NCBI RefSeq assembly: GCF_026914265.1 | Contig: NC_069129.1 | Coordinates: 13,945,571 to 14,009,570 of the forward strand | Source: Mya arenaria | Taxonomy: Eukaryota > Mollusca > Bivalvia > Myida > Myidae | Direction of reading: 5' to 3' | DNA length: 64,000 nt | Part shown: piece after piece, positions 1,860-53,200 of the stretch | How the letters are laid out: each line of letters opens with the position of its first letter | Numbering within the stretch: the first letter of the stretch is position 1 | Made by a program: the position numbers and the translations under genes | The notes under the pieces: model-generated | The model's input: only the letters and a program-made list of their open reading frames with translations | The model's database searches: none | Told to the model about the DNA's origin: nothing

Positions 1860-4605
1860 TGTGTACCTTAAATGTCACACCACTGAATGATGTCTGCCTA
1901 TATAGCCCTGATGTCACACCATTGTATGATGTCTACCTATGTAGCCCTGATGTAACACCACTGTATGATGTTAACCTGTGTAGCCCTGATGTCACACAAC
2001 TGTACCAATGTAGCCCTGATGCCACAACACTGTATGAAGTCTACCTGTGTAGCCCTGATGCCACAACACTGTATGAAGTCTACCTGTGTAGACCTAACTG
2101 TGTAGATCTGATGTCACACCACTGTATGAAGTCTTCTTGTGTAGCCCTGATGCCACAGCAGTGTATGAAGTCTACCTGTGTAGCCCTGATGTCAAACCAC
2201 TGTATGAAATCTACCTGTGTAGCCCAGATGCCACACAACTGCTGAATGTAGCCCTGATGTCACACCACTGCATGATGTTAACTTGTGAAGCCCTGATGTC
2301 ACACCACTGTATGAAGTCTACCTGTGTAGCCCTAATGTCACATCACTGCATGATGTTAACTTGTGAAGCCATGATGTCACACCACTGTATGAAGTCTACC
2401 TGTGTAGCCCTTATGTCACACCACTGTATGATGTATACCTGCATTGCCCTGATGTCACACCACTGTATGGTGTCAACCTGTGTAGCCCTGATGTCACACC
2501 ACTGTATGAAGTCTACCTGTGTAGCCCTAATGTCACACCACTGTATGAAATCTACCTATGTAGCCCTGATGTCACACGTACAACTGCTGAATGTAGCCCT
2601 GATGTCACACCACTGTATGATGTCTACTACCTTTATAGCCCTGATGCCACATCACTGTATGAAGTCTACCTGTGTAGACCTGATGTCAAACCACTGTATG
2701 AAGTCTACCTGTGTAGACCTAACTGTGTAGATCTGATGTCACACCACTGTATGAAGTCTTCTTGTGTAGCCCTGATGTCACAGCAGTGTATGAAGTCTAC
2801 CTGTGTAGCCCTGATGTCAAACCACTGTATGAAATCTACCTGTGTAGCCCAGATGCCACACAACTGCTGAATGTAGCCCTGATGTCACACCACTGCATGA
2901 TGTTAACTTGTGAAGCCCTGATGTCACACCACTGTATGAAGTCTACCTGTGTAGCCCTAATGTCACATCACTGCATGATGTTAACTTGTGAAGCCATGAT
3001 GTCACACCACTGTATGAAGTCTACCTGTGTAGCCCTTATGTCACACCACTGTATGATGTATACCTGCATTGCCCTGATGTCACACCACTGTATGGTGTCA
3101 ACCTGTGCAGCCCTGATGTCACACCACTGTATGAAGTCTACCTGTGTAGCCCTAATGTCACACCACTGTATGAAATCTACCTATGTAGCCCTGATGTCAC
3201 ACGTACAACTGCTGAATGTAGCCCTGATGTCACACCACTGTATGATGTCTACTACCTTTATAGCCCTGATGCCACATCACTGTATGAAGTCTACCTGTGT
3301 AGACCTGATGTCAAACCACTGTATGAAGTCTACCTGTGTGGCCCTGATGTCACACAACTGCTGAATGTAGCCCTGATATCACACCACTGTATGATGTCTA
3401 AATGTGTAGACCTGATGTCAAACCACTGAATGAAGTCTAAATGTGTAGACCTGATGTCACACCATTGTATGATTTCTACCTATGTAGCCCTGATGTCACA
3501 TCACTGTATGATGTCTACCTGTGTAGCCCTGATGCCACACCACTGAATGAAGTCTAAATGTGTAGCCCTCATGTCACACCACTGAATGAAGTCTACCTGT
3601 GTAGCCCTGATGTCACACCACTGAATGAAGTCTACCTGTGTAGACCTGATGTCACACCACTGAATGAAGTCTACCTGTGTAGACCTGATGTCACACCACT
3701 GTATGATGTCTAACTGTGTAGCCCTGATGTCACACCACTGTAAAGTGTCTACCTGTGTAGACCTGATGTCACACCACTGCATGAAGTCTACCTGTGTAGA
3801 CCTGATGTCACACTAATGTATGAAGTCTACCTGTGTAGCTCTGATGTCACACCACTGTTTGATGTCTACCTGTGTATACCTGATGTCGCACCACTGTATG
3901 ATGTCTACCTGTGTAGCCATGATGTCACACCACTGTAAAGTGTATACCTGTGTAGACCTGATGTCACACCGCTGTAAAGTGTCTACCTGTGTAGACTTGA
4001 TGTCACACCACTGTAAAGTGTCTACCTGTCTAGCCCTGATGTCACACCACTGTAAAGTGTCTACCTGTGTAGACCTGATGTCACACCACTGTAAAGTGTC
4101 TACCTGTGTAGCCATGATGTCACACCACTGTAAAGTGTCTACCTGTGTAGACCTGATGTCACACCACTGTATGAAGTCTACCTGTGTAGCCCTGATGTCA
4201 CACCACTGTAAAGTGTCTACCTGATGTCACACCACTGTTTGATGTCTACCTGTGTAGACCTGATGTCACTCCACTGTATGAAGTCTCAATGTGTAGCCCT
4301 GATGTTACACCACTGTTTGATGTCTACCTATGTAGACCTGATGTCACACCACTGTATGAAGTCTACCTGTGTAGCCATGATGTCACACCACTGTATGATG
4401 TCTACCTGTGTAGCCATGATGTCACACCACTGTATGAAGTCTACCTGTGTAGCCATGATGTCACACCACTGTATGATGTCTACCTGTGTAGCCATGATGT
4501 CACACCACTGTAAAGTGTCTACCTGTGTAGACCTGATGTCACACCACTGTAAAGTGTCTACCTGTGTAGACCTGATGTCTACCTATGTAGAACTGATGTC
4601 ATACC
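1860..4605. repeat. 39-bp minisatellite array, about 70 units
   Basis: Head-to-tail units of 39 bp are seen across about 2.7 kb. Each contains TGATGTCACACCACTGTATG followed by a variant of AAGTCTACCTGTGTAGCCC. Variant classes (TATGAAGTCT, TATGATGTCT, TAAAGTGTCT) are interspersed, with a TAAAGTGTCT-rich subdomain near 3,930-4,215. Because 39 is a multiple of three, units stay open in several frames and give false proteins of a 13-residue repeat. Units are shortened at 2,573-2,592 and at the array end (4,575-4,605). Confidence 0.95.
2072..3345. repeat. Higher-order duplication inside the minisatellite
   Basis: Two near-identical blocks lie in tandem with an offset of 625 bp (for example TAACTGTGTAGATCTG at 2,095 and 2,720). 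The pattern of variant units is preserved, including the odd ACGTACAACTGCTGAATG unit. Only a few substitutions separate them, so the block duplication is recent compared with the divergence among single units. 625 is 16 units of 39 plus one base. Confidence 0.85.
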
Positions 4606-4690: not shown

Positions 4691-7541
4691 ATGATGTCTG
4701 CCTATGAAGCTCCATTGCAACACCTGCTGCCATTTGCTGTTAAATCCTGTTCAAACCTTCATATTGTTAATGAGTGCTCATTTCACAAGTGCTTTTTATT
4801 TGCCTTTTTTAAAGTTTTTTTCTGTTTAAAAAAACTTTTTCTTACCTATCCTACTTTTATGGCTTAGCATCATATTCAATCTTTGTTCTCTATGGCATAA
4901 GCTGTAGGTTGATATTACTGTGTTAATCAACATACTGTTTCTATATATAAACCTGTAATCCATTTGAATTATATTAAATTTTGTGGACCTTGCGATGCCA
5001 GTACATCTAATGTGTTGCCATTGTTTCATGTTTATTATAACCTTCAGCCAATGGCATAAAACTTTGTTTGTTTTTAACCCAAGTTGGCTAAAGTGTATTG
5101 ATTGGTCAATATTTATCCAATAATTTCTATTAACCAGTCAAGTGATTAAAATTGCAGATTAATCAAAATATAACTTTAGACAAATACAAGTTTAATACAT
5201 CTGGCAACAGTTGACTAAACCGCCCATTTAGCGCAGTGGAAGAGTGTGCGCTTAGGATGTAGAAGGTAACGGGTTCAAATATGGGCTGTGTCTAACCTAG
5301 TCATCAAAATATGGTACCAGCAGCTCACTTCCCACGTGCTCAAAGGGTAGTACTGGGAAAACGGTGCACTCCGTACTGGTGTAACCCAGGAAAGTCGTAT
5401 CCTGTGTATTCAAGCTTTACACCTAGCACGTTGAAGAACCAAGAGAGCTAGTTTTCTAATATCTTGAAATGCAGTCACTTATTTCTCATGTCACTTATGG
5501 TATTTAAATACCATTTTAAGTCATGATCGCGTCATTGTGCCGTCAAGCTTAAATGCAGACAATAGGCACAGTCAGTCCTCCATAAACAAATATAAGCCAC
5601 ATCTGCTACAGTTGTTTTAGGCTGGCAGCCAAGAAATACACTATTGAAAATATTCAAAAAATTGCTTCCATGACCTGAAAAGTTCAATGTTTTACGGTCT
5701 TTTATATAAGAAAGGACTTGGTTTTCTTGTAAGTTAATGCATAAAAATCGATAAGATTTTTACAATTTTAATAACTATCTGTCCAATTTCTGCTGAACAC
5801 AGAACTTCAGGTTTGTTTCTCATTTTAGAAATACATAAAAAATTGATAAATACAATTATTGGAGAATGTACATGTATAATAGTGGTCAATTTTACATGTA
5901 TAATGTTGGTGACAATATAAACATATGTATAGATAAATGCCATATTAAACTTGTATAACATGGAATATTTTATTACAATTATTGCACTTGTGTACAATAT
6001 AGGTGTTGCTGTAATTGCAGGAACAGTGAACACAACCTTAGTTACATATCAGGGTCATATTCATAAAGTTTCTTAGTGAAACTTCAACTTAGTTTTTATT
6101 TTAAGTTGAATTTAATGAAAACTAACAATATTTTACATCATAAAATTTACAACAATGTCGTTTATCATAAAAATCTTAACACTCCATCTATTGTGTGCGC
6201 ATATAATTCAGATAAAACTAGATTGGTATTGTTCAAAATTGATCATTTACAATTGCGGTTTGTGATTATCAAGTGCATGAATTTCCTACTGATTATTGCA
6301 ATGTAATAGTTTTCTCCAAAAATAAAAATGATATAACAAAATAATCAATTATTTTGTGTTCAGCTAAAATCGTTAAGCTTATCTTTGAATACTTCAAATA
6401 AATAACAAAAATACAGCATGATAAGTTGCTTTCATCTTCATTCATTGTTAAATACTCTTAACACTTTATGCATCTTGTTAATCCATTATACCTCTTCTAT
6501 GAACTGTTAATTTTGATATCAAAGTCAAAAATCGAACAAAATGGCTTATCCGGTTATTTCCGATTATTGATTATGCTTTTGGGCAGATTCTGAAACCCTA
6601 GTGAAAACGTAAGTATGATAACAGAAGCATTGTTCTCTAAAATCAAAACTAAGGAAAAGCAAGATTTCATACATTTAAAATTGACTAAGACTTTATTTCG
6701 CAAGGTTAAACATGTGTTTGTTGAACTTGCATGTTCACATTTAAAAAGAAATGGAATTCAGAGAGGCATTCATTTTTTAATTTTATATAATTATGACAGA
6801 GCTTATATTTAACCAACATCGAGTTGGTTATATAAAACATTTTTTATTAAAATATTCCTGTCACTGGTCTACAAATTAAATTCTCTATAAATTATACTAT
6901 TTATACAAACCTATGCAACCGTTTTCCCTCTTAAAACACACAAAACATTACATGTTTATCAATTATAAGATATTGCACAATACACTTTTAATTAATTAGA
7001 ATACAACTTTCACTGATCTCAACATATCACATATACAACATACAAATTTAACTTTAATAGGGTTCTTGAAGATAAAGTTCTTAGGACTCAAAAAACCTGA
7101 TTCTGGTTTCTGGAATATTGAAACATGAACCAGAAAATTAACCTGTTTTGTCCTTGAAAGTAACAGCCTTTCAGATTTCAACAAGATCTAAATTTGTCAA
7201 GTTCAGCTCAAATATACATCCTTCTTTTGGCAATGAGCAGTCTTCACTACCTTTTTTCAATTAACATGGCCAGCATGTGTCTATGAAAATATGCACACAA
7301 GATTCCATGGAATCTCCTTCATACAATAACCAGCCATACATGTATTCTTAATAGTATGCAAATTGCAGGAATGAAAGGCAAAAATTCTCAGTGACATGGA
7401 ATTAAGGAGCAGATAGAACCTTTCCGCTTCTACCCAAATTGTCTCTTGCCTTTATGCACAACACTGCATGTATATCAAAAAATAAACTTTTGACAAGTGG
7501 ATAAATAATAACAATAATAAAAAACCCTACAAAATTTACTG
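4691..7541. other. Intergenic, includes a SINE; likely syntaxin 3' flank at right end
   Basis: No coding exon recognised on either strand. It holds the SINE described separately and, at 7,403-7,438, a fragment of the hairpin family of 4,610-4,690. The stretch just below 7,542 should contain the 3' UTR of the syntaxin-16 gene. Several reverse-complement poly(A) signals (TTTATT) are present, but none can be singled out. Confidence 0.5.
5222..5465 (+). mobile_element. tRNA-derived SINE
   Basis: The head has a pol III A box (TAGCGCAGTGG at 5,229-5,239) and a B box (GGTTCAAAT at 5,272-5,280). GCCCAT at 5,223 can pair with ATGGGC at 5,281, so a near-complete tRNA cloverleaf remains. The body runs through CTGTGTCTAACCTAG to a conserved-looking tail, ACGTTGAAGAACCAAG, near 5,440. 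This layout is typical of mollusc tRNA-SINEs. The exact 3' end is uncertain and no clear poly(A) or target duplication was found. Confidence 0.75.
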
Positions 7542-15488: not shown

Positions 15489-16293
15489 ATTGAATTCATT
15501 GAAACCCATGCTAAACCGATCGAGATACAGTATAAAAACACTACGCATCGGTAACTTCCCTTTACAAAAACACGAAAACTATCGTAGAAAAATTATACTT
15601 GATTATTTTTAGCCTTTTAATAAATTATTACCTGAAAAAAATCTGCTTGGCGATCAAAATGGAGGTGCGGGCGCACAAAAAAATAAAAATATTTTTTTTT
15701 ACATTTTCAAAAAAATAGGAGCGGTAAATCCGAGGAACGAAATATCAATTTGGTGTGGCCTAAAAGGATAAAAAATGTGATCAAGTTTGTTTCTCTCGGA
15801 AAACAGCAACTCTTCCTCACAAAATCAGTTTGGTTTAAAAACCACAAACAATTGGGGATACTATTTCAATTATAATTACCAGCATATAAAATCAAATATC
15901 TATAAATATTCCTATAAATTTGATGTTTATATGACTATTTTTAAGAAAATAGCAAGGTCTAACCCTTTAGTTGGAACTCGGGTATCGGCTTCGGCAAAGA
16001 AGGGTTAAAAGGACCAGTTACTACAAGACTTTCTAAACTGACACTCATTTTTGTTATTAAATTGAATATGATCATCGGAAAATAATCATGCCAATATTCA
16101 GCAAACAAAGACCTTTCCTAGACCTGTCAAACTTTATTTTGTAGCTTTACACTGTATCAATATGTATTTTGATTGATTAAATACTACGTGACATCAAAAA
16201 AAAACAAGCACTGGTTTATTTCTGATACTTGGCTCATTTAAACTTTATACATAAATAATTAATAAAACTACAACAACTAAAAAAGTGCCAATA
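15489..16293. other. Spacer between syntaxin promoter region and the large element
   Basis: AT-rich sequence with an A-run-rich stretch near 15,670-15,720. No exon recognised. The final nine bases (16,285-16,293, GTGCCAATA) are the left copy of the target duplication of the large element that follows. Confidence 0.5.
16285..16293. repeat. Left target-site duplication of the large element
   Basis: GTGCCAATA is identical to 26,250-26,258 and touches the first base of the terminus. Confidence 0.8.
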
Positions 16294-17912
16294 CGGTCGG
16301 TGGAATTACCGAAAACCCGAAATTCCCCGTAAATACCGAAAATCCCTTCCATTCTCTGAGGTATATAGCGTTTTCTTTAATACGCCCGGTTTTACTACTT
16401 TATTGTGTTCGAATGTTGTATGCCGTAATTGTTGGAGGTTGGAGAGGGGTGGGGAAGCCTAGGGAGGGTGGGGATGGGGGTCGTGGTGACTAAAACCCGG
16501 GACCCCCTTTCATTTTCAAAAGTTCGTACAAAAGAAGAGTATGCGAGGAGGTTCTTACGCCGTTCCTTCAAAATTGCATTGTGTTTTAGTGGGTTGTATG
16601 CTGTATATCTTGGTGGTTGGAGAGGGGTGGGGGAGTCGGAGTAGTTGGGGTGGGGCAGGGAGTGATTAAACCCCGGGAACCCCATTCATATTTCTAAGTA
16701 CATACACAAGAGTATGCAGTATGGTTTAAAACTGTATTGTGTTTAAGTGGGTTGTATGTCGTGGTTGAGGTTGGTTGGAGAGTGATGGGGGAGTCGGAGG
16801 AGGGGGTGGTGGCTACGAAGAAGTCTCAAATACTACTTTCACATATCTCATTTCAAATTGTAGAGGTAAGGGAGGGTAGGGTCGTACCTTACCGTATACA
16901 AAAAAGTATGCGAGGGTGTGTACGCCGATATTTAATACTTCATTTTGGTCGTCCTGTATGCCAAAGTTGTTGGTGGGTGGAGGGGGGTGTGGAAGTCGGA
17001 CGAGGGGGATGGCTAAATCCCGGGAAGTCCTTTTAATTTCATATATGTTAATGTTTTAACGACTAGTTCAATATCACATTTCATTGTGTTTGGTTGCTAT
17101 TCGTATTTTAAGTATATCGTATATAGAATGTTTTAAAGGTGTATTATTTGTTATTGATATTTCCTGTAATAAGTTATCCGTTTATTTCGTTGTAAAGCGC
17201 CTTTGAACGTGTGGTTAAAAATGGTGCTGTATAAGTTAATCGATAAATAATAATTGTGTATTGTGAACAAGTTGTGTGTTGAGAAAGGTGAATAACTGGT
17301 ATCAAGCGGGAGTTGATTATACAATTGTCCTTATGTGTATCATAACGAATTGTATGTGTCTCAACTGTTATGTGGAATCGCTTGGTATGTTTCATTGCAC
17401 AATCTCGTGAAGAAAGAAATGCAAATTGTACAATTTCACTTAAATACCATCACTGCACCTAAATACGAATCATCAACATCATATTAACATTGGTCATGAT
17501 AGGAAAGTGTTATTAATGAATAAAAGCATAATCTAATATTTTATATCGTAAAGCATACCGTTTAAATACTTACATGCAATACTCGTCTCAATATCGATAT
17601 GGACATGCCATTGTGAGATATTGGTCCATGTCTGTTATCTATCAGTAATGACACCCCGCTGTGACAGATTCTTATCGTGCGGTCAGTACCTGGAACCATG
17701 CTGTCACTGATGACTATAATACGATGTGTATTGAACCCCAATCAATGGCGTTCTGGTTCAAAACGGAATGCTCCTGTGAACCAGAAATTAAATCTTGTAT
17801 TTACACGGAGGTAACAAGTAAGAGTACGCGGTGTATGAAATAAACATCGGAAGTCTGAATATTTATTTCTTAGTGTAATGCAGTTCAAGAGTACGTTGCA
17901 CGTCAGTGTTTA
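16294..17912 (+). repeat. Left terminal inverted repeat of the large element
   Basis: About 1.62 kb that reads inverted at 24,126-26,249. It includes GC- and G-rich blocks (16,430-17,030) of the type GGTTGGAGAGGGGTGGGG, repeated about four times at roughly 150-180 bp spacing. These subrepeats give spurious open frames on both strands (16,395-17,036). The match fades after CACGTCAGTGTTTA at about 17,912. Confidence 0.85.
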
Positions 17913-17929
17913 CGATATTAAAGAAATTT

Positions 17930-18092
17930 AATATAATACACCACTGAGGGCCATATGACATAATAAGGACAGGCCATTTACCCATCGAAGGTGTATATGG
18001 ACCGAGGCGTAAGCCGAGGTCTGTTCACCTTCGGGGGCTGAGTAGGCGGTTATTATAATGCCATATGTCCCGAAGTGGTATATTATATGAAA
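17930..18092. repeat. Palindromic element just inside the left arm
   Basis: TATAATACACCACTGAGGGC with CATATGACATAATAA at the left is matched inverted by TTATTATAATGCCATATGTC and CGAAGTGGTATATTATA at the right. The core holds GACCGAGGCGTAAGCCGAGG and a CCTTCGGGGG loop. The size of about 160 bp and the inverted ends indicate a small MITE nested in the large element. It is absent from the right arm side. Confidence 0.6.
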
Positions 18093-19339
18093 GAGGATGA
18101 TCTTAAGCGAAGTGATATTGCTAATTTTCGACCATATGAGAGCGTTATGGCAGGATAAATGTGGACTTGAATTGAACCAAAGATTTGTATTATATATATA
18201 TTTTTTTCTAATTTAGATGAAAAACAGATTGTTCATTCACCGTGCCATATTCAGGCCACACCACGAGGAGGCGCTCTCGTCATGGCCCATCCCCCACCCC
18301 CACCCAAAACCTACCCTCATTTAGTTGAAGAAGTTTCAACACATTCCTAATTTGTTACGTACTACAGCTTCAGAGAACATTGAAATGCAACAGCATCTTC
18401 AAAAAATCATAAAAAATTGGTCTAATTGAAAATAACCTCCCTCCCTTATGGACTTTCATTTCGTATTATTTTAAGACGGACTGCTTATGCAATGTTAAAA
18501 ATATTCATCAATTAATCCCGAAAGAAATCGATACTTATTTTGAAATAATCATCCTATTCTGCGAAAACAGTTAGGTTGCCGAAACATTCACGGGAATGAC
18601 CGTAAAGTGATATGTTCGAATTAAAGGTAATTAACAACCGTCTTGCCACTATGACAGCACTCGTGAACTGTACCTTGTTTGTTATATAGACCTATCTAGC
18701 TCACAAACATTTTTCTATAAACCTTAATATCCCGTTTTAGAACTATTCACATAAAGGCATACCAGCATTTAAATGGGTTAGTAATCATACGTTTTAAGTC
18801 CACGTAAGAGAGCTATGTAATGGCTCTCTTCAGCAGCAATGTAGCACTAGTTAACGCGCAAGGGTTGTGGCAAATGTAAAGCATGTATAATAATAGAAGT
18901 TAAATACACATATGATAGCCTGAACAGTCAGTGTATAAAACAAAATAAATAAAACATATGTACAAGATGTAAAACTGAGTTGACAAAACAGTTGTATAAT
19001 GACTGTCAATTATCAAGCAAAGCATACAAAGAACCCATGGCTAGAAAGATAGGTATAATGGTGTGACATTGTTGGCAGTACTGTTGAATGTCACGTCAAT
19101 GCATATGTCTCAGCTTTCCCTAAAGGGGGACATAAACTGAAAACATAAGCACCCTTTTTTCATTTTTTAAGTACAGTTGTTACTTCATGCGTACCTCAAA
19201 GACTCGAAAGCGAAACGCGAGGAAAATATGCCTGTAACATGTCATGTTGTCGAGCAAGTTCGAACTCTTCATGAACTTTTCCTGAACTATTTTTATTTAT
19301 TTGTTGTTGATGCGATATAGAGAAATATTTCATCATAAA

Positions 19340-20118
19340 GCGATGATTAAGGAATAATCCATCCCAGTAAATGTAGTCGACATCAGCTAACCGTATTTAT
19401 TGCTGGCCGTTTACAAAAGGAGTAATTGCATTTGCGACGTGAGTTGCGCTGAGAGATATGCCACCTCAGTGAGACTGAAGTTTCCCTACAATGGGATTCA
19501 CGGCGGGTCTCTGCAGCAACAAACTCACGCGCTTAAATGGGTTTCACCGATTGTCTAGCTCTGACATAAATGGTACACCCCAAAATTGAATTTACCATGT
19601 ATATCGTTTGACATAAAAGTGCATGTTGACATCAGCTAGCCGCTATTATTGCTTATTATTGGCGCATGGTTTTCGACGACGACAAAAGGTTAACGCAATT
19701 TGGAAAAAGGAGTAGTTGCACTTGCGACGCGAGTTGCGCTGAGAGATATGCCACCTCAGTGAGACTGAAGTTTCCCTACAATGGGATTCACGGCGGGTCT
19801 CTGCAGCAACAAACTCACGCGCTTAAATGGGTTTCACTGATTGTCTAGCTCTGACATAAATGGTACACCCCAAAATTGAATGTACCATGTATATCGTTTG
19901 ACCTAAAAGTGCATGTTGACATCAGCTAGCCGCTATTATTGCTTATTATTGGCGCATGGTTTTCGACGACGACAAAAGGTTAACGCAATTTGGAAAAAGG
20001 AGTAGTTGCACTTGCGACGCGAGTTGCGCTGAGAGATATGCCACCTCAGTGCGACTGAAGTTTCCCTACAATGGGATTCACGGCGGGTCTCTGTAGCAAC
20101 AAACTCACGCGCAAGCAC
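19340..20118. repeat. 290-bp tandem repeat, about 2.6 copies
   Basis: GAGTTGCGCTGAGAGATATG and the surrounding sequence recur at 290-bp spacing (anchors at 19,421, 19,711 and 20,001). Copies two and three are almost identical; the first differs at its left edge (GTAATTGCATTTGCGACGT versus GTAGTTGCACTTGCGACGC). The third copy stops after CAACAAACTCACGCGC. Subterminal or internal tandem repeats like these are common in transposons as protein-binding arrays, but that role is inference. Confidence 0.85.
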
Positions 20119-21069
20119 TTCAAAAGGTATGACATGTTTTCCAGAGTAGACACAGCATGGCACGAGCAAAAATGATACAAAATGTTACACAATTCAAAAA
20201 CACATTATATGAACAAAAAGACATACAATAAAACACATAACATCTAAAATGACAATTTTTTTTTGTACCGGACAATGGCGCACAGTAAATCCACAACAAA
20301 CAATTGAATGCGCTTATGCATGAATTTGATGTTACTCCATATAATGGGAAATTTTCGTTTGGTAATTTTCAACACGCTTTTTTCGGGTACGTCGGCGTCA
20401 CATGATCTCCCATATGAGGCGCCCTATCAGATATGGTAAAAAACAGTAAAATTTGGGGTTAGTCCGTAAGTAGCTGGACATGATGAAGGCAACGACATCA
20501 GCATTTACGTAGTTTCAATTAATCTAGATGTTCCTGTACATAACGAATGTTCTGGTCTTACCGAGCGCCATATCCGGTGATCTTATATATATATCGAAAC
20601 AATTAACACACATAATTACAACACAACTGAGAAGCACAATTAAGGCGTTTTCGAAGCACAGCTAGACAAACTGATACATGACATAGGTCTTTAATATATT
20701 TAAATGTCCGCTGACTGGATTTAAATGTATGTTTTTTTAATTTCTTTGCCATTTTGCTTTCATCTATATTTGTTTTAATCGGTGGTAGCTGTGTGAATTA
20801 TTTTGTTGTATTATTTTCATTTTAAAGAAGGATTTTGAAAAGTTATCTGCATTTCATACAGCGCCCTTAACTGACTGTGAACACAAGTGGAGGTTACACA
20901 ATTTCTACAAACAGTAAAAAACGGGGACCAAGAGACAGTTGAAAAGATGGAAATAAACTGGGCAAAAGAAACGCGAAATTATACACCAATAGATTAAGTT
21001 TGGTAAAATGTGGCAAATATCACAACAACACAAGCATGACATGGACATAAATAATGGTTGCATAGAAGT

Positions 21070-21341
21070 ATTCATGTTGAGCTTCATTTTTTCGAGAACA
21101 ACCTCAGTTAAGAAGGTCCGTAAATTCTACATTATATAATGAAAAAATGTGTAGATTTAAGTTGAAAATAGTTGCCCGTTAATTTTATAAAATTGCAAAC
21201 ATAAGTACAGCTGCTTAATTCAATGTACAACGCGATCTACTTGCGTGCGGCGTAGTTAAAGTGTACCGATTTCTTACTTTGTAAACCGTTCATAGACATT
21301 TGAGGTTGTTTTCGTAGGAAATGGCCAAGGTGCTCCGAATG
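21070..21341. mobile_element. MITE of the CATTCGGAGCTCCTCGGCC family, worn copy
   Basis: The right end AGGTTGTTTTCG...GCTCCGAATG matches the intact copy at 31,324-31,660. The left end (TATTCATGTTGAGCTTCATT then TTTTCGAGAACAACCTC) is a degraded version of the same terminus. Internal words GCGATCTACTTG and AAACCGT also match, inverted. It is nested in the large element. No target duplication could be made out. Confidence 0.6.
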
Positions 21342-22074
21342 AAAACATCGGCGTACATGCATAAATAGATTGCATAGATTATAGATATAACAAAGTGACC
21401 ACGAAAAAAATATTGCATAGAATAATCAACATCAACTCATTGCACACAATATCTGATACAATACAAATAAAACATTACAAAATCATGTGCTACTGTCACC
21501 GACTTTAATGTGAACTGATTGGTAACTGAATGTGAATTTGCAGTGAGCATTAAAAGTCCTAAATGAGCTAATTCTTGAAAAATAATTTAAATTAAATTAT
21601 AATACCATATACATCTTTTCGTAAATTTTTACAGTTGTTACAATCTGTGAAATCTTGTCTTACTTAGCAAGTAGCGATGCTTTACTTTATCAAACAGTCG
21701 GCTAACCACAATAGAAAATCTGCACAAGTTAGAGAACAAAAGGTGACACACATTACATATAATATTAACATATATACAAAAACAACACTATCTTGAAATA
21801 CTCCTGTAGTTTAGTATTAAGAATTGTCTTCTGAGAACATTATGCCAAAATATCGAAATGTTAAACCGTCTCATTCTTAACAAATTAAGTTGGTGAATCC
21901 CAAACATCTATTTCAGCCGTAATTGCGAGTTAAAAAACGTCACAGATGCTAATATATTAATATGTGTAAACATCTATCTCATTACTTTTAATTAAAATAC
22001 AATTTGAACTTTTGTATAGAAATGTTAGGTAATGAAACCAAAAAATAAATAAAAAATATTGCAATGTGCTTCTG

Positions 22075-22150
22075 TCTGGATTCGAACCATTATCATGAAA
22101 CCCTCAAAATATTCTTAGTCCCTGTGCTTAACACTACAGGCTAAAGCATT
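22075..22150 (-). other. tRNA-like remnant
   Basis: On the minus strand, TTAGCCTGTAGTGTTAAGCA followed about 30 bases later by TGGTTCGAATCC resembles A and B boxes of a pol III promoter with a long variable region. No closing acceptor stem is seen. It is best read as a tRNA pseudogene or SINE head, not a working tRNA. Confidence 0.35.
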
Positions 22151-22505
22151 GAGTATCGAGTGGAGGTTTTATTAGGGGTGTGCTACCTTAATGGTCGCAT
22201 ACTTCAGGAACTGTACAAATACATTTCTATATTCCCCAATGTTCTTTCATATTATTTGTACACTGGTGACACGTCATCTTGTTTTGAGTAATAGCTGGAT
22301 TATACACTCAATTCGCCCATTCTTAATCATCATGATTTAATTTCAGCTCATATAACTGTCTTAGAAAACAACACATTGCAGGGAATGTGTATCGGTTTAG
22401 TGGCAGTGAACTGCTACTACCATTCTTCTTTGTGATTACGCTTGGCTAGAATAAATCGCGTTATTAATCACAAGCTGAGGGATTTCGCTTTCTGTACGGC
22501 AAATT

Positions 22506-22543
22506 GGATTCGCACGCACGCAAGCACGCATGCACGCACGCAC
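22506..22543. repeat. GCAC-type microsatellite
   Basis: Imperfect repeats of GCAC/GCAT over about 38 bp, inside the large element. Confidence 0.8.
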
Positions 22544-22670
22544 AACTGCTTTGACTGTTGTCAGTGGCAAAAGTACAATAAATGAAGACAAACTTCATCC
22601 TGCAATGTTTATTATGCTGAACACATGAACAGATACAAATTAACATTATTGACGAATGAAACGAGCACAA

Positions 22671-23700
22671 TTACATGTACCGGCACACTGCCGACCTAAT
22701 TCTATAAAACAACTTTTTCAGTCCCTTCTCATTTAAATGTACTTTGTCTCGCATGAACTCGGCTGGAAAACGTATGTGGGGAAGCCGCAAAACTTCAACG
22801 AGCTCTCTCTCTTCCCCAGCAACTGGTTAATTCGTGCGCGCTGGCTTGCAAAAGACCTGTACCCCAACCCGTCCCGGAATGCTCCACGCTCCCCAATCTC
22901 CAACACCAGGATGGTAGATACACCACTGTCAAGGAAGTCCTGGGCAATGTCAAGTACGGCCGCCACTATGTCCTTCGGTACGGATGTAGTTGTGATATCA
23001 TTGCCGCCCAAACTCACTACCACCAAGTCCGCCCCGTACATGTTCACCTGTTTCAAAAGTCCTGGTTTGGGTTTGGAAGCTTTCATCCCGCCCGCACCAA
23101 AGAAACGCACCTCCATAGGCACCTAAAAGAATACATTTAATATTGTAAATGGCTTCACAGTCGTTGCCTTTGTAATATTCTTTTCAATTATCACCTCATT
23201 GCAACATTGTTTTAATAATTGTCATCCGTATATATTCAATTGAAGTAAAACATAATATATACAAAACAGAATATATATGCGGCCTTTCAATTAAAGAATT
23301 ACTACACAACTTATGACTGTAACATTTCCCAGTGTGCAAAGTGCTTAAACATCACATATGAATACATAATATATCATTGTACATTCAGACCTAATATTTA
23401 GTACGCTTAATTAGGTTGAGTCATTAAATCGTGACAGTAGGTGTTTACAAAAAGTCTACAAGCTGCACTCTCACAGATTGACCATCCTAAAACTTTTTAG
23501 TACGAGTATATTGGCATGTCGTTATATGACAACTAGAAACAAACACGTATAAATCGCCGATGTAAGCTAACTAAATAGGAAGTTAGGTTTTACTGTACAT
23601 AGTGAGTGAACATGAAAAAACAACGCACCTTGAGGTCCTCATTGCAGAATGCGTCTAGTCGCCAGACGTGACTGTCCCCGAAAATTGCAACTTTCTTCAT
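22671..23700 (-). CDS. SGNH/GDSL-type hydrolase-like gene, two exons, frame-shifted near the 3' end
   Basis: Exon 1 (23,700-23,629) starts at the ATG of MKKVAIFGDSHVWRLDAFCN, with the block-I serine in GDSH. Its donor AAG-GTGCGT joins acceptor TTTTAG at 23,123 to give NEDLKVPMEVRFFGAGG without a frame break. Exon 2 carries block III as ADLVVVSLGGNDITT (the catalytic-family Asn is in GGND). The frame of exon 2 stops at 22,733. A second frame shifted by one base reads FPAEFMRDKVHLNEKGLKKL and ends at 22,671; it supplies block V with the Asp-x-Val-His pair. The complete domain is therefore present but needs two frames, meaning a real frameshift, a base-call error or an unseen short intron. Encoded domain is about 175 residues, small for an esterase. 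SGNH domains occur in secreted esterases and in ORF1 of some CR1-type LINEs. Location inside the transposon-like element suggests cargo. Substrate unknown. Confidence 0.65.
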
Positions 23701-24231
23701 TTTTAATAACAAGAGTGAACATAACATACATGCAATATATTTGAACACACCTTTATATATACTGACAATCTGACGATTGTGCTCAAGCCATGCCAAGGTG
23801 TTAATTCTGCTACAAACACTCATTACACGGTTCTAACTTTTATATATCAACAAGCGCTTTCATTAGGTACTGCGAATTCACACCCTTTTACCAAACACGT
23901 GAAATTTAACATATCACGTTCTCAAGGTGTTCCGACTTTAATTAGCCAATTTTAAAATCCATATTCGCTTTCAACTATTCCCCAAATATTCCTCGCCTTT
24001 CTTTTTAAAAGCAAATGCTTACAACGCTTTTCCTAAAATGTATTCACTAAATCTATATTGTACTATTATTATACCAAGAACAATACGAATATAATTGATA
24101 AAACATACATATACTAGTATATAGAAACACTGACGTGCAATGTACTCTTGAACTGCACTGCATTAAGAAATAAATATTCCGACTTCAGATGTTTCTCTCA
24201 TACACCGCGTACTCTTACTTGTTACCTTCGT

Positions 24232-24463
24232 GTAAATAAAACAGAACAGATATTTTATTAAGACTTGTACAACGTACATCATCTTCTTAACCACAAATGA
24301 ATAATAAATAAACAAACACATGGTATGACATAGGTTATACATAATATGAAATAGAATCATAAATATATTCAAAAAATTATTCACATCAGGTGAGGATGAA
24401 CAAAACTATTATAATTATAAGTGAATATTTAAAGTTTATCTTCAAATACTCCTTTGTGTAAAT
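24232..24463. mobile_element. Insertion in the right arm only
   Basis: About 230 bp with no counterpart in the left arm. The arm sequence TATTTACAC with its GAAGG/AAAGG neighbour stands at both edges, which reads as a target duplication of about 9-12 bp. Content is very AT-rich with no coding frame. Family unknown. Confidence 0.55.
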
Positions 24464-24948
24464 ACAAGATTTAATTTCTGGTTCACAGGAGCATCCCGTT
24501 TTGAACCTGACCGCCATTGGGGTTCAATACACATCGTATCATAGTCATCAGTGACAGCATGGTTCCAAGTACTGACCGCACGATAAGAATCTGTCACAGC
24601 GGGGTGTCATTACTGATAGGTATCAGACATGGACCAATATCTCACAATGACATGTCCATATCGATATTGAGACGAATATTTCATGTATGAATTTAAATAG
24701 TATGCTTTATGATATTAAATCTAATATTAAGCCTTTATTCATTAAATACACTTTCCTATCATTGTCATGACAAATGTTAATATATGTTGATGATTCTTAT
24801 TTAGGTACAGTGATGGTATTTATGTGAAATTGTGCAATTTGCATTTCTTTCTTCGCGAGATTGTGCAATGAAACATACCAAGCGATTCCACATAACAGTT
24901 GAGACACATACAAATCGTTATGATACACATAAGAACAATTGTATAAAC

Positions 24949-25219
24949 TAGGCACACAATTGTTAGATATTCTTTTTCTTATGTACAAGTGATTCAAAGG
25001 TAATATTTCTACTATTGATACAACCTTATTCATTGTGATTTGACTATAATGTTTTCTGGCTTCATGTAAATGACCGTCCGATACTCGTATTGGGTATCAT
25101 ATGAATTGTAGTTAGAAATTTACATTATATCTGCCGCCATGTATATATGTTTTGTATAGGACCTCATTTGCCATGTTTATGGTATGAGAGAATAAACCGT
25201 GTTTGACTTTGACTTTGAA
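24949..25219 (+). mobile_element. Second insertion in the right arm, retroposon-like
   Basis: About 270 bp absent from the left arm, placed between GTTGATTATA and CAATTGTTC of the arm (minus-strand reading). On the plus strand it ends GTTTGACTTTGACTTTGAAT, a short simple-repeat tail of the kind seen at 3' ends of some LINE/SINE families. TTATA-like bases at both edges may be a short target duplication. It is probably a truncated retroposon. Confidence 0.45.
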
Positions 25220-26249
25220 TATAATCAACTCCCGCTTGATACCAATTAATCACCTTTCTCGACACACAACTTGTTCACAATACACAATTATTATTTATCG
25301 ATTAACTTATACAGCACCATTTTTAACCACACGTTCAAAGGCGCTTTACAACGAAATAAACGGATAACTTATTACAGGAAATATCAATAACAAATAATAC
25401 ACCTTTAAAACATTCAATATACGATATACTTAAAATACGAATAGCAACCAAACACAATGAAATGTGATATTGAACTAGTCGTTAAAACATTAACATATAT
25501 GAAATTAAAAGGACTTCCCGGGATTTAGCCATCCCCCTCGTCCGACTTCCACACCCCCCTCCACCCACCAACAACTTTGGCATACAGGACGACCAAAATG
25601 AAGTATTAAATATCGGCGTACACACCCTCGCATACTTTTTTGTATACGGTAAGGTAAGACCCTACCCTCCCTTACCTCTACAATTTGAAATGAGATATGT
25701 GAAAGTAGTATTTGAGACTTCTTCGTAGCCACCACCCCCTCCTCCGACTCCCCCACCACTCTCCAACCAACCTCAACCACGACATACAACCCACTTAAAC
25801 ACAATACAGTTTTAAACCATACTGCATACTCTTGTGTATGTACTTAGAAATATGAATGGGGTTCCCGGGGTTTAATCACTCCCTGCCCCACCCCAACTAC
25901 TCCGACCCCCCCCCACCCCTCTCCAACCACCAAGATATACAGCATACAACCCACTAAAACACAATGCAATTTTGAAGGAACGGCGTAAGAACCTCCTCGC
26001 ATACTCTTCTTTTGTACGAACTTTTGAAAATGAAAGGGGGTCCCGGGTTTTAGTCACCACGACCCCCATCCCCACCCTCCCTAGGCTTCCCCAACCCTCT
26101 CCAACCTCCAACAATTACGGCATACAACATTCGAACACAATAAAGTAGTAAATCCGGGCGTATTAAAGAAAACGCTATATACCTCTGAAAATGGAAGGGA
26201 TTTTCGGTATTTACGGGGATTTTCGGGTTTTCGGTAATTCCACCGACCC

Positions 26250-26258
26250 GTGCCAATA
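26250..26258. repeat. Right target-site duplication of the large element
   Basis: GTGCCAATA is identical to 16,285-16,293 and starts at the base after the terminus. Confidence 0.8.
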
Positions 26259-28249: not shown

Positions 28250-31051
28250 TTAATAATCACAGTTTGATTGATCGGTTTGCCTGAAACTTTTTGTGTTGAT
28301 ATTGAAGGTAGCGAGCTTATTCTGAAGTTTTTCTATAATGGCATTGTCGAGAGTGTTGTTTCTGCTGAGGATCCAGGCGAAGTCAGCCTGTAACAAGCCT
28401 CCTATGTCCGTGCAGGACCAAACTAGGGAGTAGGTATCGTAGTCCGTGTCTACAATCCAGTATGGCACCCGAGGGGAACCTGAAAAAATATTTTGCATAT
28501 ATGTACTATGTATACATGTACCACTATTTAGACTTAAACGCACCGATGTGCAAATAAATATGATCATATTAGGCCTAAAAAAGCAATATGTTTCCAGTTT
28601 CATGCTCCAAAAAATGGGGTATTTAGGTCTGAAAAAAATGGAATATTTTTTATTAGCCATTTTTTTCTTGATATCTTTCTGTTACCAACAACTATAAGTT
28701 TAATCTTAAGAACATCCATACACTCAGTATTAGCACCACTGGCATTGTAAAAGGTCGAAAACTTCATTTTAAACTTTTAATAGATTTTAATCAAATGAAT
28801 ACCAAAAGAAATTAAAGGCAATAAAGATGTCTAGGGTCGGTGCAAACAATAGGGTAGGTCGGAACCCGGAAACAAACATTTTGCCTCTACGCCTAACACA
28901 CCGGTATTCGTGTTTGTCTTCTTTAAAACAGCTACAGTCGCTGACTGCTTTTTATGTTTTGAGAATTATGTCTAAAGTTTACACTATTGAAATACATTCG
29001 GCGAAAATATGTTGAAAACTTAAAATGTATGTTCTTTACCGTTGAATGTGACGGAGAGTTTAGCGGGAACATTCGGGTCCATGGCTTCGGCGTCTCCTGT
29101 GGCAACGTCTTTACTTCCGTCTTTCCTGTCAAGGGAAATGATAAAATCATGGCGTGGCACTAGTCAGACATAATTCGAGACTTTAAACATGTTCACAATT
29201 ATCTGACATAATTCGAGACTTTAAACATGTTCACAATTATCTGACATAATTCGGGACTTTGAACATGTTCACAATTATCTGACATAATTCGGGGCTTTAA
29301 ACATGTTCACAATTATCTGACATAATTCGGGGCTTTGAACATGTTCACAATTATCTGACATAATTCGAGACTTTGAACATTTCCACAATTATCTGACATA
29401 ATTCGAGACTTTGAACATTTCCACAATTATCTGACATAATTCGAGACTTTGAACATTTCCACAATTATCTGACATAATTCGAGACTTTGAACATTTCTAC
29501 AATTATCTGACATAATTCGAGACTTTGAACATTTCCACAATTATCTGACATAATTCGAGACTATAAACATATTCACAATTATCTGACATAATTCGAGACT
29601 TTGAACATTTTCATTATAATCTGATATTGGCAAGGTATCTACCAATACCAAAATATTACCAAAAAACTTGTAGTTTTTAGAGAGTTTTGCACGGAAATGA
29701 ATTTCTTGCTTTACATAAATATACACTTTGATTTACTTAATGATTTTCACGTTTTGCTCAAATTAAATGAAATTGTAGCATTTTAAAAACAAAACAAAAC
29801 AAACAACAACAGAATACAATTATCTTATTCACAATTCATATGACAAATACACTGGCACCGGATTTTCAAACTCAATCATTTTTTTTTTTAAATAAAAAAA
29901 ATAATATTTTTATTCCTTACTAAAAATTATAATACCGAATATGTGAAAAAAATATTGAAAAATATTTTTTTTAAATATGCACTTTGTACTGTATAATATA
30001 CTAACTTATTATGATTAATAATAATAAAATGATTAAGTTTGAAAATCCGGTGCCAGTGGACAAATACATACGCTATGCCAGTATTTAAAACCCTAATGTG
30101 ACCATCAGATTTCAAACTGTAGTCGGCTGTAATACACTTCTCCGAGCCCTCGATGAAGAAAAAGAACTTCTGGATCTCGTACCATTGTCCAAGATACTGA
30201 AAAAAATATACACTATTATTACAAATGTTATTAATTAGGCGATTTCAAATTGCCCCATTTATTTGTCCGAGGTTAGCTGTATTTGTCTGAGCCCGATATT
30301 TGGCGAGTTTTGTAGCCAAACAAAACGGAGGAAACTTATATTGGGCGAGTTTGGTTTGATATTGGCCGAGTTTGTTCGATATTGGCCGAGTTTTGGCATA
30401 TATTGTCGTCAATTGTCTGGTATTGGTATCGCGAGTATCACCGTATCGCGCCAAGTACGTAAAAGTTGATTTATAATAACCAATATGTTGTCATGGACAC
30501 GGGACTAATTTGTCTAAAATCGTTAACATGTAGATATGTAAGAGAAACCGTTTTCGACGGTACCGGATTATTAAACATGATAACAAGAGCGCCACAGAGG
30601 GAACTCCATCGCTCGTCTGTTGTTGCGATGTTTTTGTTTTTCAGTCGTAAAATGGGCAGAACTCAACAAGTCATAGTTATGGCCGTTGCTGTAAATGTGT
30701 ATACCAGGTTATGTTTTGCGATATGCGTACTAAGTATCAGTTCATCTTGAATAGCTTTAGGCTAAGAGTTATGGCTAAGGTCAAAGTTTATACCCAAGGA
30801 CGCCGACGCCGACGCCGATGACCATAACGACGACAAAGACATATAAGGCAATGACAATACACATCGATTATTCTTCTTCGAAAAACAGACGAGTTAAAAT
30901 AATTAATAGCGTGTATGTGTAATAAATAAGTACATACCCTGGTTACGTTCAAATCTTGAACAACATCAACTGCAGGGCATTTCCCGAAAGTTGGCACCTG
31001 CGCACTGCACGCAGCAACCATAAGAGACACACACACAGCTACCGATATCAT
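28250..31051 (-). CDS. ApoD-like lipocalin 1
   Basis: Secreted beta-barrel carrier of small hydrophobic ligands; the ligand cannot be told from sequence. Exons: 31,051-30,938; 30,196-30,072; 29,125-29,040; 28,479-28,250 (114, 125, 86 and 230 nt; phases 0, 2, 1), giving 184 residues. Residues 1-18 (MISVAVCVSLMVAACSAQ) are a signal peptide. The lipocalin GxW motif is YLGQWYEIQKF at residues 39-49, the second motif is DTDYDTYSLVWSCTD, and the third-motif Arg lies in WILSRNN. Four Cys outside the signal (GKCP, EKCI, WSCT, SNCDY) fit the two ApoD disulphides. NVT at residue 35 is a possible N-glycosylation site. Acceptors and donors are canonical. Introns hold a minisatellite and a hAT-like MITE. 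It is the first of three paralogues in this window. Confidence 0.93.
29160..29625. repeat. 38-bp minisatellite in lipocalin 1 intron 2
   Basis: About 12 copies of GACATAATTCGAGACTTTGA plus ACATTTCCACAATTATCT, period 38 (starts at 29,167, 29,205 and so on). Early units carry GTTCACAATT and later ones TTCCACAATT. The array begins only 35 bp from the exon-3 acceptor side. Confidence 0.92.
29842..30066. mobile_element. hAT-like MITE in lipocalin 1 intron 2 with 8-bp target duplication
   Basis: The element is 29,850-30,058 (209 bp). Its ends are CACTGGCACCGGATTTTCAA and the inverted complement, about 33 bp each with one or two mismatches. GACAAATA flanks both sides (29,842-29,849 and 30,059-30,066). 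An 8-bp duplication and CA-starting termini suit hAT. The core is A/T runs with no frame. The right duplication ends six bases from exon 2, so its TATTTGTC overlaps position +6 of the intron. Confidence 0.85.
30243..30455. repeat. GGCCGAG-rich repeat in lipocalin 1 intron 1
   Basis: Short direct repeats ATATTGGCCGAGTTT and relatives (TGTCCGAGGTTAGC, TTGGGCGAGTTTGG) occur in about 15-25 bp steps. They create an open frame on both strands, so neither is a gene. Confidence 0.5.
30575..30840. repeat. Dispersed AACAAGAGC-type repeat
   Basis: AACAAGAGCGCCACAGAGGG, GCTCGTCTGTTGTTGC, TGTGTATACCAGGTTATG and a GACGCCGACGCCGACGCCG tail. A related copy is at 47,585-47,800 (AACAAGAGCACCCCAAAAGG, GCTTGTCTGTTTTTG, TGTGTACCAAGTTTCATG, then ACAATGACGACATC). 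This family is widespread in bivalve DNA. It is intronic in lipocalin 1. Confidence 0.55.
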
Positions 31052-38755: not shown

Positions 38756-38759
38756 GACT

Positions 38760-39415
38760 CTAGATGGCAGAATTTCGACGAAAGAACAACAACAATACAA
38801 TACACTATAGATGGCAGAATTTCAACGAAAGAACAACAACAATACAATACACTCAAGATGGAAGAATGTCGACGAAAGAACAACAACAATACAATACACT
38901 CAAGATGGCAGAATGTCGACGAAAGAACAACAACAATACAATACACTCAAGATGGCAGAATGCCGACGAAAAACAACAACAATACAATACACTCAAGATG
39001 GCAGAATGTCGACGAAAAACAACAACAATACAATACACTCTAGATGGCAGAATGTCGAAGAAAAACAACAACAATACAATACACTCTAGATGGCAGAATG
39101 TCGACGAAAAAAACAACAACAATACAATACACTCTAGATGGCAGAACGTCGACGAAAAAACAACAACACTACGATACACTCTAGATGGCAGAATGTCGAC
39201 GAAAACAAGCAATTCGATAAACTCCAGATGATAGAATGTCGACGAAAAAAGCAATACGATACACTCTAGATGGCAGAATTTTGACGAAAAAAAAACACTA
39301 ATATGATACACTTTAGATGGCAGAATTTCGACGAAAAAAAAACAATACGATACACTCTAGATGGCAGAATTTTTACGAAAGAAAAGAATACGATACACTC
39401 TAGATGGCAGAATCA
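38760..39415. repeat. 47-bp minisatellite
   Basis: About 14 units of AGATGGCAGAATGTCGACGA plus AAGAACAACAACAATACAAT and ACACTCT, period close to 47 with small indels in the A-rich part. The last units shorten (AAAAAACAATACGATACACTCT). The open frames on both strands here are by-products of the repeat. Confidence 0.92.
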
Positions 39416-50254: not shown

Positions 50255-53200
50255 TCAAGGCCCTTGATAGTGTGCAGCAGTGGGATAAGCCAACGGGAGT
50301 CCACTGGGAGATGGTCCTCCAACAGGGACAGTGGCTACTCGGCTAAACTGGCTACTAGGCACCTGAAATATGTGACAAAAGAGCAGGTGAAAGTTATGAC
50401 TTTGTTGTCAAACTTGTATTCATAACAAAGCCAGAAACTCTATGAATCTTAGTATGCCAGACAGACTTTTAAATATACAGGTATTTATCACTCCATTCTA
50501 AAACAGACTATAAAACTAGGGGATAGGCAAAACGCAGCAAGAAGTGACATCATTATGCAGATTTGACATTTGCGTGATAGGACTTCCACTGATTCTGTCC
50601 AATCAGAAACACTTATTTTACATTAATTTAACCATGGAAGTTCGCTGAAAAAAAGTGAGCTTAACAAACCTGTCCTTGCTGCATTTGTAGCCCGGCATAT
50701 GGCGATGGATAGAGTGGGTGACCAGCATATGGATTTTGTGAGGCCTGGATCTGCAGTGGGGTGAACTGAGAACCAATATATGTTGGATATGGGGAACCAG
50801 CCTGGGATACAAGGGATGTCATTGTCACAGGAACCTGCTGGGCCATGCTGGACTGCATGGAGTAGCCTCCCATGCCAAGTGGGTAGGGTGAGGAACCTGT
50901 AGAACAATGTAAAATTTGATTATATAAATAAATTTAAAAACATAATAACAACAAGGGCTCTACCAAGCGAACACCTGTCCTTTGCTTGTCTGGTTTTATT
51001 TTTAGTTGAACTCATCATTTATTAAGCCCAGATTTGTATGCATTCCTGTACATGTAAATACTCACTATAAGATGTTACCATGTTCCATTTGAATATTTTG
51101 AACGGTTTCTGAGTAATGGCCAAGTAGCTGCACAAAGTTGCCAACAACGCAAAAGGCTATGACGGTAACTGGACTTTTTTCATTGAAATACAAACAAAGC
51201 TAAAAATATATGAGACACAATTATGTTTCTTGCATCATATGTTCATACTGAAAATGCAATCAGAGTTTTATGTTAATAATTCATGAGAAAATGCCAGAAG
51301 ATTCCAAGCCTTCTTTATTTTTTAAATAAATTTCAATGAAATTATTATCTTTTAAAATTATTGTTTTGCTATGACAAAACTTTTTCTTTAAACATTTGAG
51401 CATGCTGTGATTGCAAATTTGAGCATGCTGTGATTGCAAATTTGAGCATGCTGTGATTGCAAATGGTAGAAATTGATAACAGGTGTAATCACTCATTCTT
51501 TAACTAGTATTTTTCTGAAAAATAGCAACAGTAAATACCTTTTTGTTCTTATATTGAAACACAATAAATACCAGTACAGTAACACTTTCAATGTGACTGC
51601 AAGAACAAAATACTCACTCATCATGGATTGTGAGGACCCCAAAGGACTGGTGGTTCTGAGCCCGTAGTTGGGAGAGACCATGTATCTCTGCTGGCCATCA
51701 GCACAGCTTACTGGTATGTAGGTCGGCTGACCAGATCCGTAATACGCTGCCCCAGGCTGGCCTAGGGAGCTTGATGTAGCTAGTAGACCGGCTTGGCCGA
51801 GTCCAGGATAGCCCTGTGGTGCCCCTGGCAACATGCCCTGCTTTTCTGCACCAGGGTACATTCCACCAAGGCCATTGGATGCCCTGGACATTCCACCTGC
51901 CTGCATCTGAACAGCGGTCATCCCGGGCATCCCGCCTAGGCCTTGCATGCCCTGCATTCCGGGAATCCCGCCCACAGGGGACATTCCTGCGGGCATCTGG
52001 GCCATTCCCGGAACCCCTCCCTGCATCTGTACAGCGACTCCATAAGGAACACGTTGACCACTGCAAAGTTCAGATATTGGCAGTCAGTACTTGGCATTCA
52101 GTATTTTAATAAAACAGAAGAGCTGAAAGAAATGGTCATAAATATAAATGGCAATTTCCAGATAAAACATGAGCAGCAAAAGTTAAACATAACTTAAAAC
52201 AGCATGAAAAAAGCAACTAATTCTGTGAAAACAACCATCCCAATCTCTTGATTACATCTACCTGCTGGATATATTACAGCATACACTCATGCGTGGAATA
52301 TAGAACTATAACGTCATGCATAGAAGCTCCCAACACCGAGAATAAAACCCAGAATAAAGTGATCCCAATTGCAAGAAACAAACAGCATGAGCAGTACATG
52401 CTTCTTCAACACTTATAATTGAATGTATTTTCCAAACTAGTCATCTCCATGGCTCTAAAACCTGTCTGTTTCTTGCAGGGGATAATGTAATAGAGATTGT
52501 TAGAGACAACAGTATTACCCTGACTACGTAACATGGATAAGGAGGTAAATGTGGATTGTGAGGTAAACTACGATGTAGATGAGGTGGATTATGTGATGGC
52601 TAGATGAGTATATACACACACACTGATTCACAGAAACCCACACAAACTCTTGCAGTAATAAGGACATTTGCTAATTTTCAGGCTACAGGCTCCCCCCTGT
52701 AGTTGCTATTGTTCCATTCTTTTAAATTGGAGCTAAGGTGAGAACAAATCCTTTAAGAACGTAGCAAGATGAAAATTAATGCAAACAATGACACTGTGGA
52801 GTGCTACTTAAGTAGCATTATATTTCTTTGTTTTTATTTGTTTCATTTTTTTATTAAAACTTACAGCTTATGTTTTGCACATTTAGGGCCCCATTTATGT
52901 TTTTTTTCGTCACGTTATGGCGTACACTTTTTGTGTGTACGAGAACATGAAATAAGCATTTACATCCAGATGCTTACATATATTTCTTTAAATCACAGTT
53001 GTAAGAAAAATATTATTAGCATTTTTGCTGTCATTATGCAAAATAAATTTACCAAGTTTTGTGTGAGTATTCTGTGAAAATATTATTAATACATTGAATA
53101 CACACAATACTGATAATGTGCAAATCTATAATAGCGACTTTTAAAGGCTACAGCGCACTAATTTAAGTATCCCCTCATTCAGAACTTTTATTACAGTTTG

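Follow-up and report, generated by a model that had tools for sequence, protein, structure and literature searches.

Accessory esterases of the SGNH-hydrolase type have been described in several kinds of mobile element. They are found in open reading frame 1 (ORF1) of CR1/ZfL2 long interspersed nuclear elements (LINEs), whose enzyme hydrolyses esters and binds phospholipids (PMC3905857), and as GDSL genes in bdelloid long terminal repeat (LTR) elements and in Terminons (PMC5408684, PMC6431247); these are all retroelements, in which the esterase serves an RNA-mediated cycle. Among animal DNA transposons, fish Helitrons carry texim SGNH genes, which have been read either as captured spermatogenesis genes or as transposition helpers; unlike the element studied here they move by rolling circle and not by cut-and-paste, and the association is reported for fish only (PMC4021074). 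We analysed a stretch of 64,000 nucleotides of the bivalve Mya arenaria (contig NC_069129.1, positions 13,945,571 to 14,009,570, forward strand; hereafter the window), which holds a transposable element of about 10 kb with an SGNH-hydrolase gene. This element is very probably a non-autonomous deletion derivative of a large, foldback-like group of Mutator-like elements (MULEs) in which the SGNH gene is a long-standing resident. In the literature searched, which left Repbase, supplements and most subscription papers outside, we found no report of an SGNH gene in a MULE, and the main texts of PMC6446971, PMC13359780, PMC6431247 and PMC10294476 never use the word SGNH; within that literature the nearest reported precedent is the fish Helitron with texim (PMC4021074).

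The element occupies positions 16,294-26,249 of the window (9,956 bp) and lies between two identical copies of the target-site duplication GTGCCAATA, at 16,285-16,293 on the left and 26,250-26,258 on the right. An initial annotation, made from the letters alone, had proposed a single transposition unit with these coordinates and ends and with inverted arms of 1.6-2.1 kb. Both proposals were confirmed: the left arm (16,294-17,911, plus strand) measures 1,618 bp and the right arm (24,125-26,249, minus strand) 2,125 bp, in keeping with the long terminal inverted repeats (TIRs) that are frequent, if not universal, in MULEs. The alignment of the two arms that it had called for gave 17 mismatches and 5 gap columns over 1,040 columns for the outer parts, 16,294-17,328 (1,035 bp) against about 25,210-26,249, while the inner stretches, reaching 17,911 and 24,125, pair at 91-96%. 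Diverged direct repeats (about 65-79% alike) lie within the left arm, and a segment of about 275 bp (about 24,947-25,220) is exclusive to the right arm; long TIRs with internal direct repeats are a foldback trait. Between the arms, a 290-bp tandem repeat is present in 2.4 copies (19,415-20,112). We also rejected a recent homogenisation between the arms: with 17 differences in 1,035 outer positions (1.6%), they are further apart than six copies of the element are from one another (0.34-0.66%), which places the arm differences before the burst that produced these copies. A search for an empty site with the joined flanks returned only the two flanks themselves and a stray 35-bp match, and so gave no empty-site proof.

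In order to find other copies, we searched the genome (1.216 Gb, 18 contigs) with the 21-base terminus GGTCGGTGGAATTACCGAAAA, allowing at most one mismatch. It occurred at 270 places (134 + 136), compared to none for the reversed control, which shows that the terminus is not a chance sequence. Target duplications were scored for 33 terminus pairs, made up of a set of 13 (9 perfect, 1 with one mismatch, 3 without) and a set of 20 chosen from the first 100 of the 270 places (16 perfect, 1 with one mismatch, 3 without). The expectation that copies elsewhere would show 9-bp duplications at exactly these ends therefore held perfectly for 25 of the 33 pairs, held with one mismatch for two, and failed for six, which have no duplication. 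Two of the perfect duplications have one common flank and are not independent, and the count omits C6:65.8, C16:30.9 and C1:43.4, for each of which a single end was located. MULE duplications measure 8-11 bp, typically 9, and that of the window copy is exact. Six 10-kb copies on four chromosomes carry perfect duplications of differing sequence and diverge pairwise by 0.34-0.66%; an assembly artefact is therefore unlikely, and judged from this low divergence, to which no mutation rate was applied, the burst of deleted copies is young.

Several other arrangements share these termini. At C6:62438408-62456138 lies a near-perfect palindrome of 17,731 bp, with arms of about 8.77 kb that are 99.9% alike, no target duplication and a different interior with C2H2 zinc-finger-like frames; candidate readings are an inverted dimer or an assembly fold-back. 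Copies of about 850 bp, resembling miniature inverted-repeat transposable elements (MITEs), are found at C1:11973397, C3:34839388, C3:66164023 and C12:23671672, the first three of which have a common flank and therefore probably spread inside another repeat. A subgroup of about 6.3 kb comprises C11:7869159, 8012953 and 8045034, which fall within 0.2 Mb, as well as C4:12126943 and C7:42855998. Two like-oriented termini at C6:65833673 and 65841217, separated by 7,544 bp, resemble a tandem duplication of a partial element.

The Pfam MULE model matched the genome at 54 places, one of which (C10:1583652) falls inside a terminus pair, among the places listed. This C10 copy (C10:1573271-1590134) is 16,864 bp long, has the same termini and the duplication TACATTTTG, and contains a frame of 1,010 aa that matches MULE (PF10551) at 30.3 bits, above the cut-off of 27.6, and OTU at 20.5 bits, below the cut-off of 23.3. 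The autonomous-type relative that had been suggested thus exists, and its MULE transposase, together with the 9-bp duplications, upholds the MULE-like identity proposed earlier. The window element matches this relative at about 95-96% on either side of a 6,895-bp gap, which holds the entire 1,010-aa frame and, by coordinates, the PHD exon as well. The scar of this loss of the transposase exons lies at 21,770-21,779, where the two alignments overlap by 10 bp, and the bases exactly common to both sides of the deletion in the C10 copy are ACAA. Read by eye, the open frames of the window element include no MULE transposase, the corresponding region being deleted. The initial annotation had rightly seen no recognisable transposase here. 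It had taken the esterase for cargo in place of one, a view that is not supported: from the alignment, the window copy lacks its transposase through the internal 6.9-kb deletion, and the two copies stand in the usual autonomous/non-autonomous relation.

The same deletion junction was found in all seven ten-kb-class copies compared, namely the window element and six further ones, and the six of the seven with both ends known each have their own perfect duplication. Because identical junctions occur at different sites, the deleted form probably spread in trans. A 7.6-kb copy at C14:52778609-52786186 has another gap, missing element positions 4,749-7,138, which suggests that internal deletions arose more than once.

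The transposase gene seems to extend beyond the 1,010-aa frame. A PHD-like exon lies upstream of the transposase both in the C10 copy and in a divergent relative at C15:15017001-15026000, the two exons being 44% identical; that of C15 matches PF00628 with E = 0.0088 and 16.5 bits, below the cut-off of 24. In hand-picked lists, the PHD exon was upstream and on the same strand as the transposase in 14 of 15 close pairs. In C10 and C15 it ends in CG followed by GTAAGT, and in our reading of the splicing the next exon may begin at AG then C-CT, the frame being kept through Arg-Leu. These observations suggest one PHD-OTU-DDE gene. PHD domains have a chromatin role, and the catalytic motifs of MULE transposases are D, D, C-x2-H and E. 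Candidates for them, identified by eye, are kept between C10 and C15 (GSDDE/GTDDE, CIRH/CTRH and NNCESMNH), and a third family on C6 is without the H of the candidate C-x2-H motif.

The SGNH gene that had been proposed in the interior of the element was borne out by its conserved blocks. In the window copy it is on the minus strand, with exon 1 (23,629-23,700) carrying the catalytic serine block GDSH and exon 2 (22,674-23,122) the GGND and DxVH blocks; the putative intron (23,123-23,628) is suggested by its GT...AG ends and by the same junction in the C15 family. Exon 2 is frameshifted by a net insertion of 2 nt relative to the C10 copy, where exons of 72 and 447 bp and an intron of 505 bp give a protein of 173 aa. 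The S, G, N and H blocks read GDSH, GGND and DKVH in the C10 frame and GDSY, GGND and DMVH in C15. The match to Pfam PF13472 reached 29.1 bits, below the curated cut-off of 32.9. A structure model of exon 2 alone, of low confidence (mean predicted local distance difference test score, pLDDT, 64.1), gave no PDB match at E ≤ 0.001, but its top 12 PDB structures were TesA and PAF-acetylhydrolase (PAF-AH), with a best E of 2.5e-3 and a template modelling (TM) score to the query of 0.46-0.59. A PDB sequence search with the same exon returned one chance-level match (E = 0.84). Motifs, profile and fold together point to an SGNH hydrolase, with a putative esterase function. Exon 2 had 141 matches in the genome. 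The genome also contains SGNH-like frames of 201-231 aa at many loci (e.g. C14:52450374 and C2:49248712), 30-31% identical to the gene of the element, which are perhaps LINE ORF1 esterases.

The SGNH gene also stands beside MULE transposases outside the family of the window element. The C15 relative has long inverted arms that are strongly and internally repeated, and its OTU-MULE transposase, 49% identical to that of C10 over 272 aa of the DDE part and 40% over OTU, exceeds both cut-offs (OTU 32.0 and MULE 35.4 bits). Its SGNH exon 2 is 37% identical to the C10 gene, exon 1 matches as well, and in our reading of the sequences the exon junction and its phase are equal in both. In a third family (C6:25401139-25403227), an SGNH exon 43% identical to that of C10, with GRND replacing GGND, lies 1.3 kb from a partly decayed transposase that is 42% identical to C10 and 45% to C15. 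Over the three families, transposases are thus 42-49% and SGNH proteins 37-43% identical. At C4:32376350 lies a further relative, 41% identical to C10, in which the Asp of the last block is gone; none of the listed transposases falls within 40 kb of it.

We then compared the positions of two sets of loci: 80 for SGNH, obtained by merging the 141 matches once a multi-copy class of short, low-scoring ones and the class of 201-231 aa had been set aside, and 106 for the transposase, merged by hand from two match lists; many loci are fragments. Among these listed loci, seven pairs within 5 kb were observed, from the three families, compared to 0.07 expected under uniform placement, an expectation that is only a rough guide since copies of one family are not independent. 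The gene order varies: in C10, SGNH, PHD and transposase are all on one strand, and in C15 the SGNH gene lies between PHD and OTU and is read from the other strand. PHD and SGNH were convergent in 40 of 40 close pairs from subset lists (all 94 PHD entries, 35 hand-picked transposase loci and 66 SGNH loci, the latter mostly the top entries of 146 with some hand-picked ones), pairs that are descriptive only. Since the SGNH gene is found in the C10 copy, which bears a transposase, and beside the MULE transposases of two divergent families, it looks like an old resident and not recent cargo.

Among described transposons, the Rehavkus group, a MULE outgroup (PMC6446971), resembles this family in its 9-bp duplication, in its minisatellite before the 3' TIR, which in the C10 copy takes the form of about 3.4 copies of the 290-bp repeat between transposase and 3' TIR, and, if the PHD-like exon belongs to the transposase gene, in its transposase-linked PHD finger; any kinship with it would be putative. 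Rehavkus differs by its arthropod or annelid hosts, its TIRs of 26-400 bp and its single ORF, and the account given of it lists neither OTU nor SGNH (PMC6446971). The Tm1 Mutator/Foldback elements of root-knot nematodes also have composite foldback TIRs of variable length, 9-bp duplications and transposase-bearing, gene-bearing and MITE-like members (PMC3169594). However, their 496-aa transposase resembles Phantom, their extra sequences are histone hairpins and Cg-1 instead of SGNH, and they are described as low copy and without evidence of recent transposition (PMC3169594). OTU, Ulp1, SET or PHD parts have been reported in MULEs or related transposons. MuDR-6_HM of hydra (group 14, OTU-bearing) and the mollusc MULE groups 15 and 19 have a MULE transposase in common with our family, but their entries list no SGNH or PHD, and their TIRs are absent or measure 48 and 296 bp (PMC6446971). 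Ginger1 DNA transposons likewise have OTU, Ulp1 or PHD domains in their transposases but a DDE domain of the Gypsy-integrase type, and the word esterase is absent from the main text describing them (PMC2836005).

Since foldback arms are known in more than one superfamily (PMC3573991), the element might belong to another one, such as Galileo/P-type, with the MULE of the C10 copy nested in it by accident. The 9-bp duplications, the collinearity of the window element with the C10 copy to either side of the transposase and the same order of PHD and OTU-MULE in the C15 element, which likewise has long, internally repeated inverted arms, largely refute this explanation and leave it extremely improbable. 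A Pack-MULE-like history, in which a MULE took up a host esterase gene by chance and now carries it as a passenger, has a precedent in the gene-fragment capture well known in plant MULEs (PMC6431247). It would agree with a within-family constraint on SGNH that is not clearly visible and with the separation of most listed SGNH and transposase loci from one another. We nevertheless consider it improbable: the gene is present in the transposase-bearing copy and adjoins the transposases of two divergent families, its exon junction is common to two families, and 19 of the 141 matches span all of exon 2 without a stop. Moreover, a Pack-MULE is a captured host fragment without transposase, whereas the transposase of the window copy was removed by the deletion. 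A rather unlikely but more credible alternative is that the SGNH gene did not come from the host at all but is a module of retroelement origin, of the CR1/L2-type LINE ORF1 esterase, acquired by an ancestral MULE. CR1-type LINEs, bdelloid LTR elements and Terminons do contain SGNH/GDSL esterases (PMC3905857, PMC5408684), and the remote 201-231-aa frames are multi-copy in this same genome; on the other side, the better-scoring SGNH matches include MULE-associated ones, and the comparison with the remote frames is one of sequence identity. Such an origin concerns the source of the gene and is compatible with its long residence in the MULE group.

Several observations weigh against a deletion derivative of a MULE group with a resident SGNH gene. 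A partner within 40 kb exists for only 9 of the 106 listed transposase loci and for 14 of the 80 SGNH loci on the list, and six terminus pairs, as noted above, are without duplication. The C10 copy contains no stretch collinear with element positions 224-777, in the outer left arm, and only one of 57 transposase matches spans the 1,010 aa without a stop. When purifying selection on the SGNH gene was tested in eight copies against C10, none was demonstrated: divergence was 1.8-2.5% in exon 2 and 0.8-1.6% in the intron, and each ratio of non-synonymous to synonymous rates (dN/dS, 0.30-0.45) is based on no more than 13 changes, most of them shared between copies. Splicing is predicted from sequence, and the window copy, with a broken SGNH frame and no transposase, gives no sign of present movement. 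What can be read directly from the assembly, on the other side, comprises the termini, the duplications of 9 bp, the deletion, a relative that bears the transposase, and SGNH genes adjoining MULE transposases in three families; we hold to a deletion derivative with great confidence.

Elsewhere in the window, a large 39-bp tandem array (1,872-4,579; about 65 copies from 2,094 on) yields repetitive open frames. Other tandem arrays have periods of 47 bp (38,757-39,413), 38 bp (29,167-29,624) and 175 bp (61,097-61,729). A Gly/Met-rich open frame of 196 aa on the minus strand (51,493-52,083) is possibly a host gene exon.

We propose that a PHD-OTU-DDE transposase from C10-like relatives would bind the shared termini and excise the element, which would reinsert with a 9-bp stagger. 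The transposase exons would have been lost once, in the 6.9-kb deletion, probably when gap repair failed or when ends were joined at a short homology; moved in trans, the deleted form would later have arrived at seven sites or more. The SGNH hydrolase would be an accessory gene of the MULE group, older than the divergence of its families, and would probably act on a lipid or acyl substrate, as CR1-type LINE esterases do. The OTU domain may work in the ubiquitin pathway, as was proposed for Ginger1 and related transposases (PMC2836005). Because the SGNH frame is broken in the window copy, probably only the ends matter for the movement of that copy.

With a transposase-bearing MULE of 16.9 kb, a single ancestral deletion and a recent burst of copies that carry it, this family offers a clear case in a species whose genome paper reports DNA transposons as enriched among the repeats amplified in transmissible cancer (PMC10663159). 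More tentatively, and with the chances somewhat against it, the SGNH esterase may be a standing functional part of the cut-and-paste cycle of these PHD-OTU-MULEs, parallel to the esterases of LINEs, LTR elements, Terminons and Helitrons. Hitherto, the esterases of retroelements have been ascribed roles at membranes or in particles during an RNA cycle, and the occurrence of SGNH genes beside cut-and-paste transposases in three families whose transposases are 42-49% identical suggests that this explanation is too narrow. If the esterase does take part in the cycle, then either a lipid- or acyl-directed step would help mobile elements however they move, or one pool of esterase genes would extend across transposon classes.

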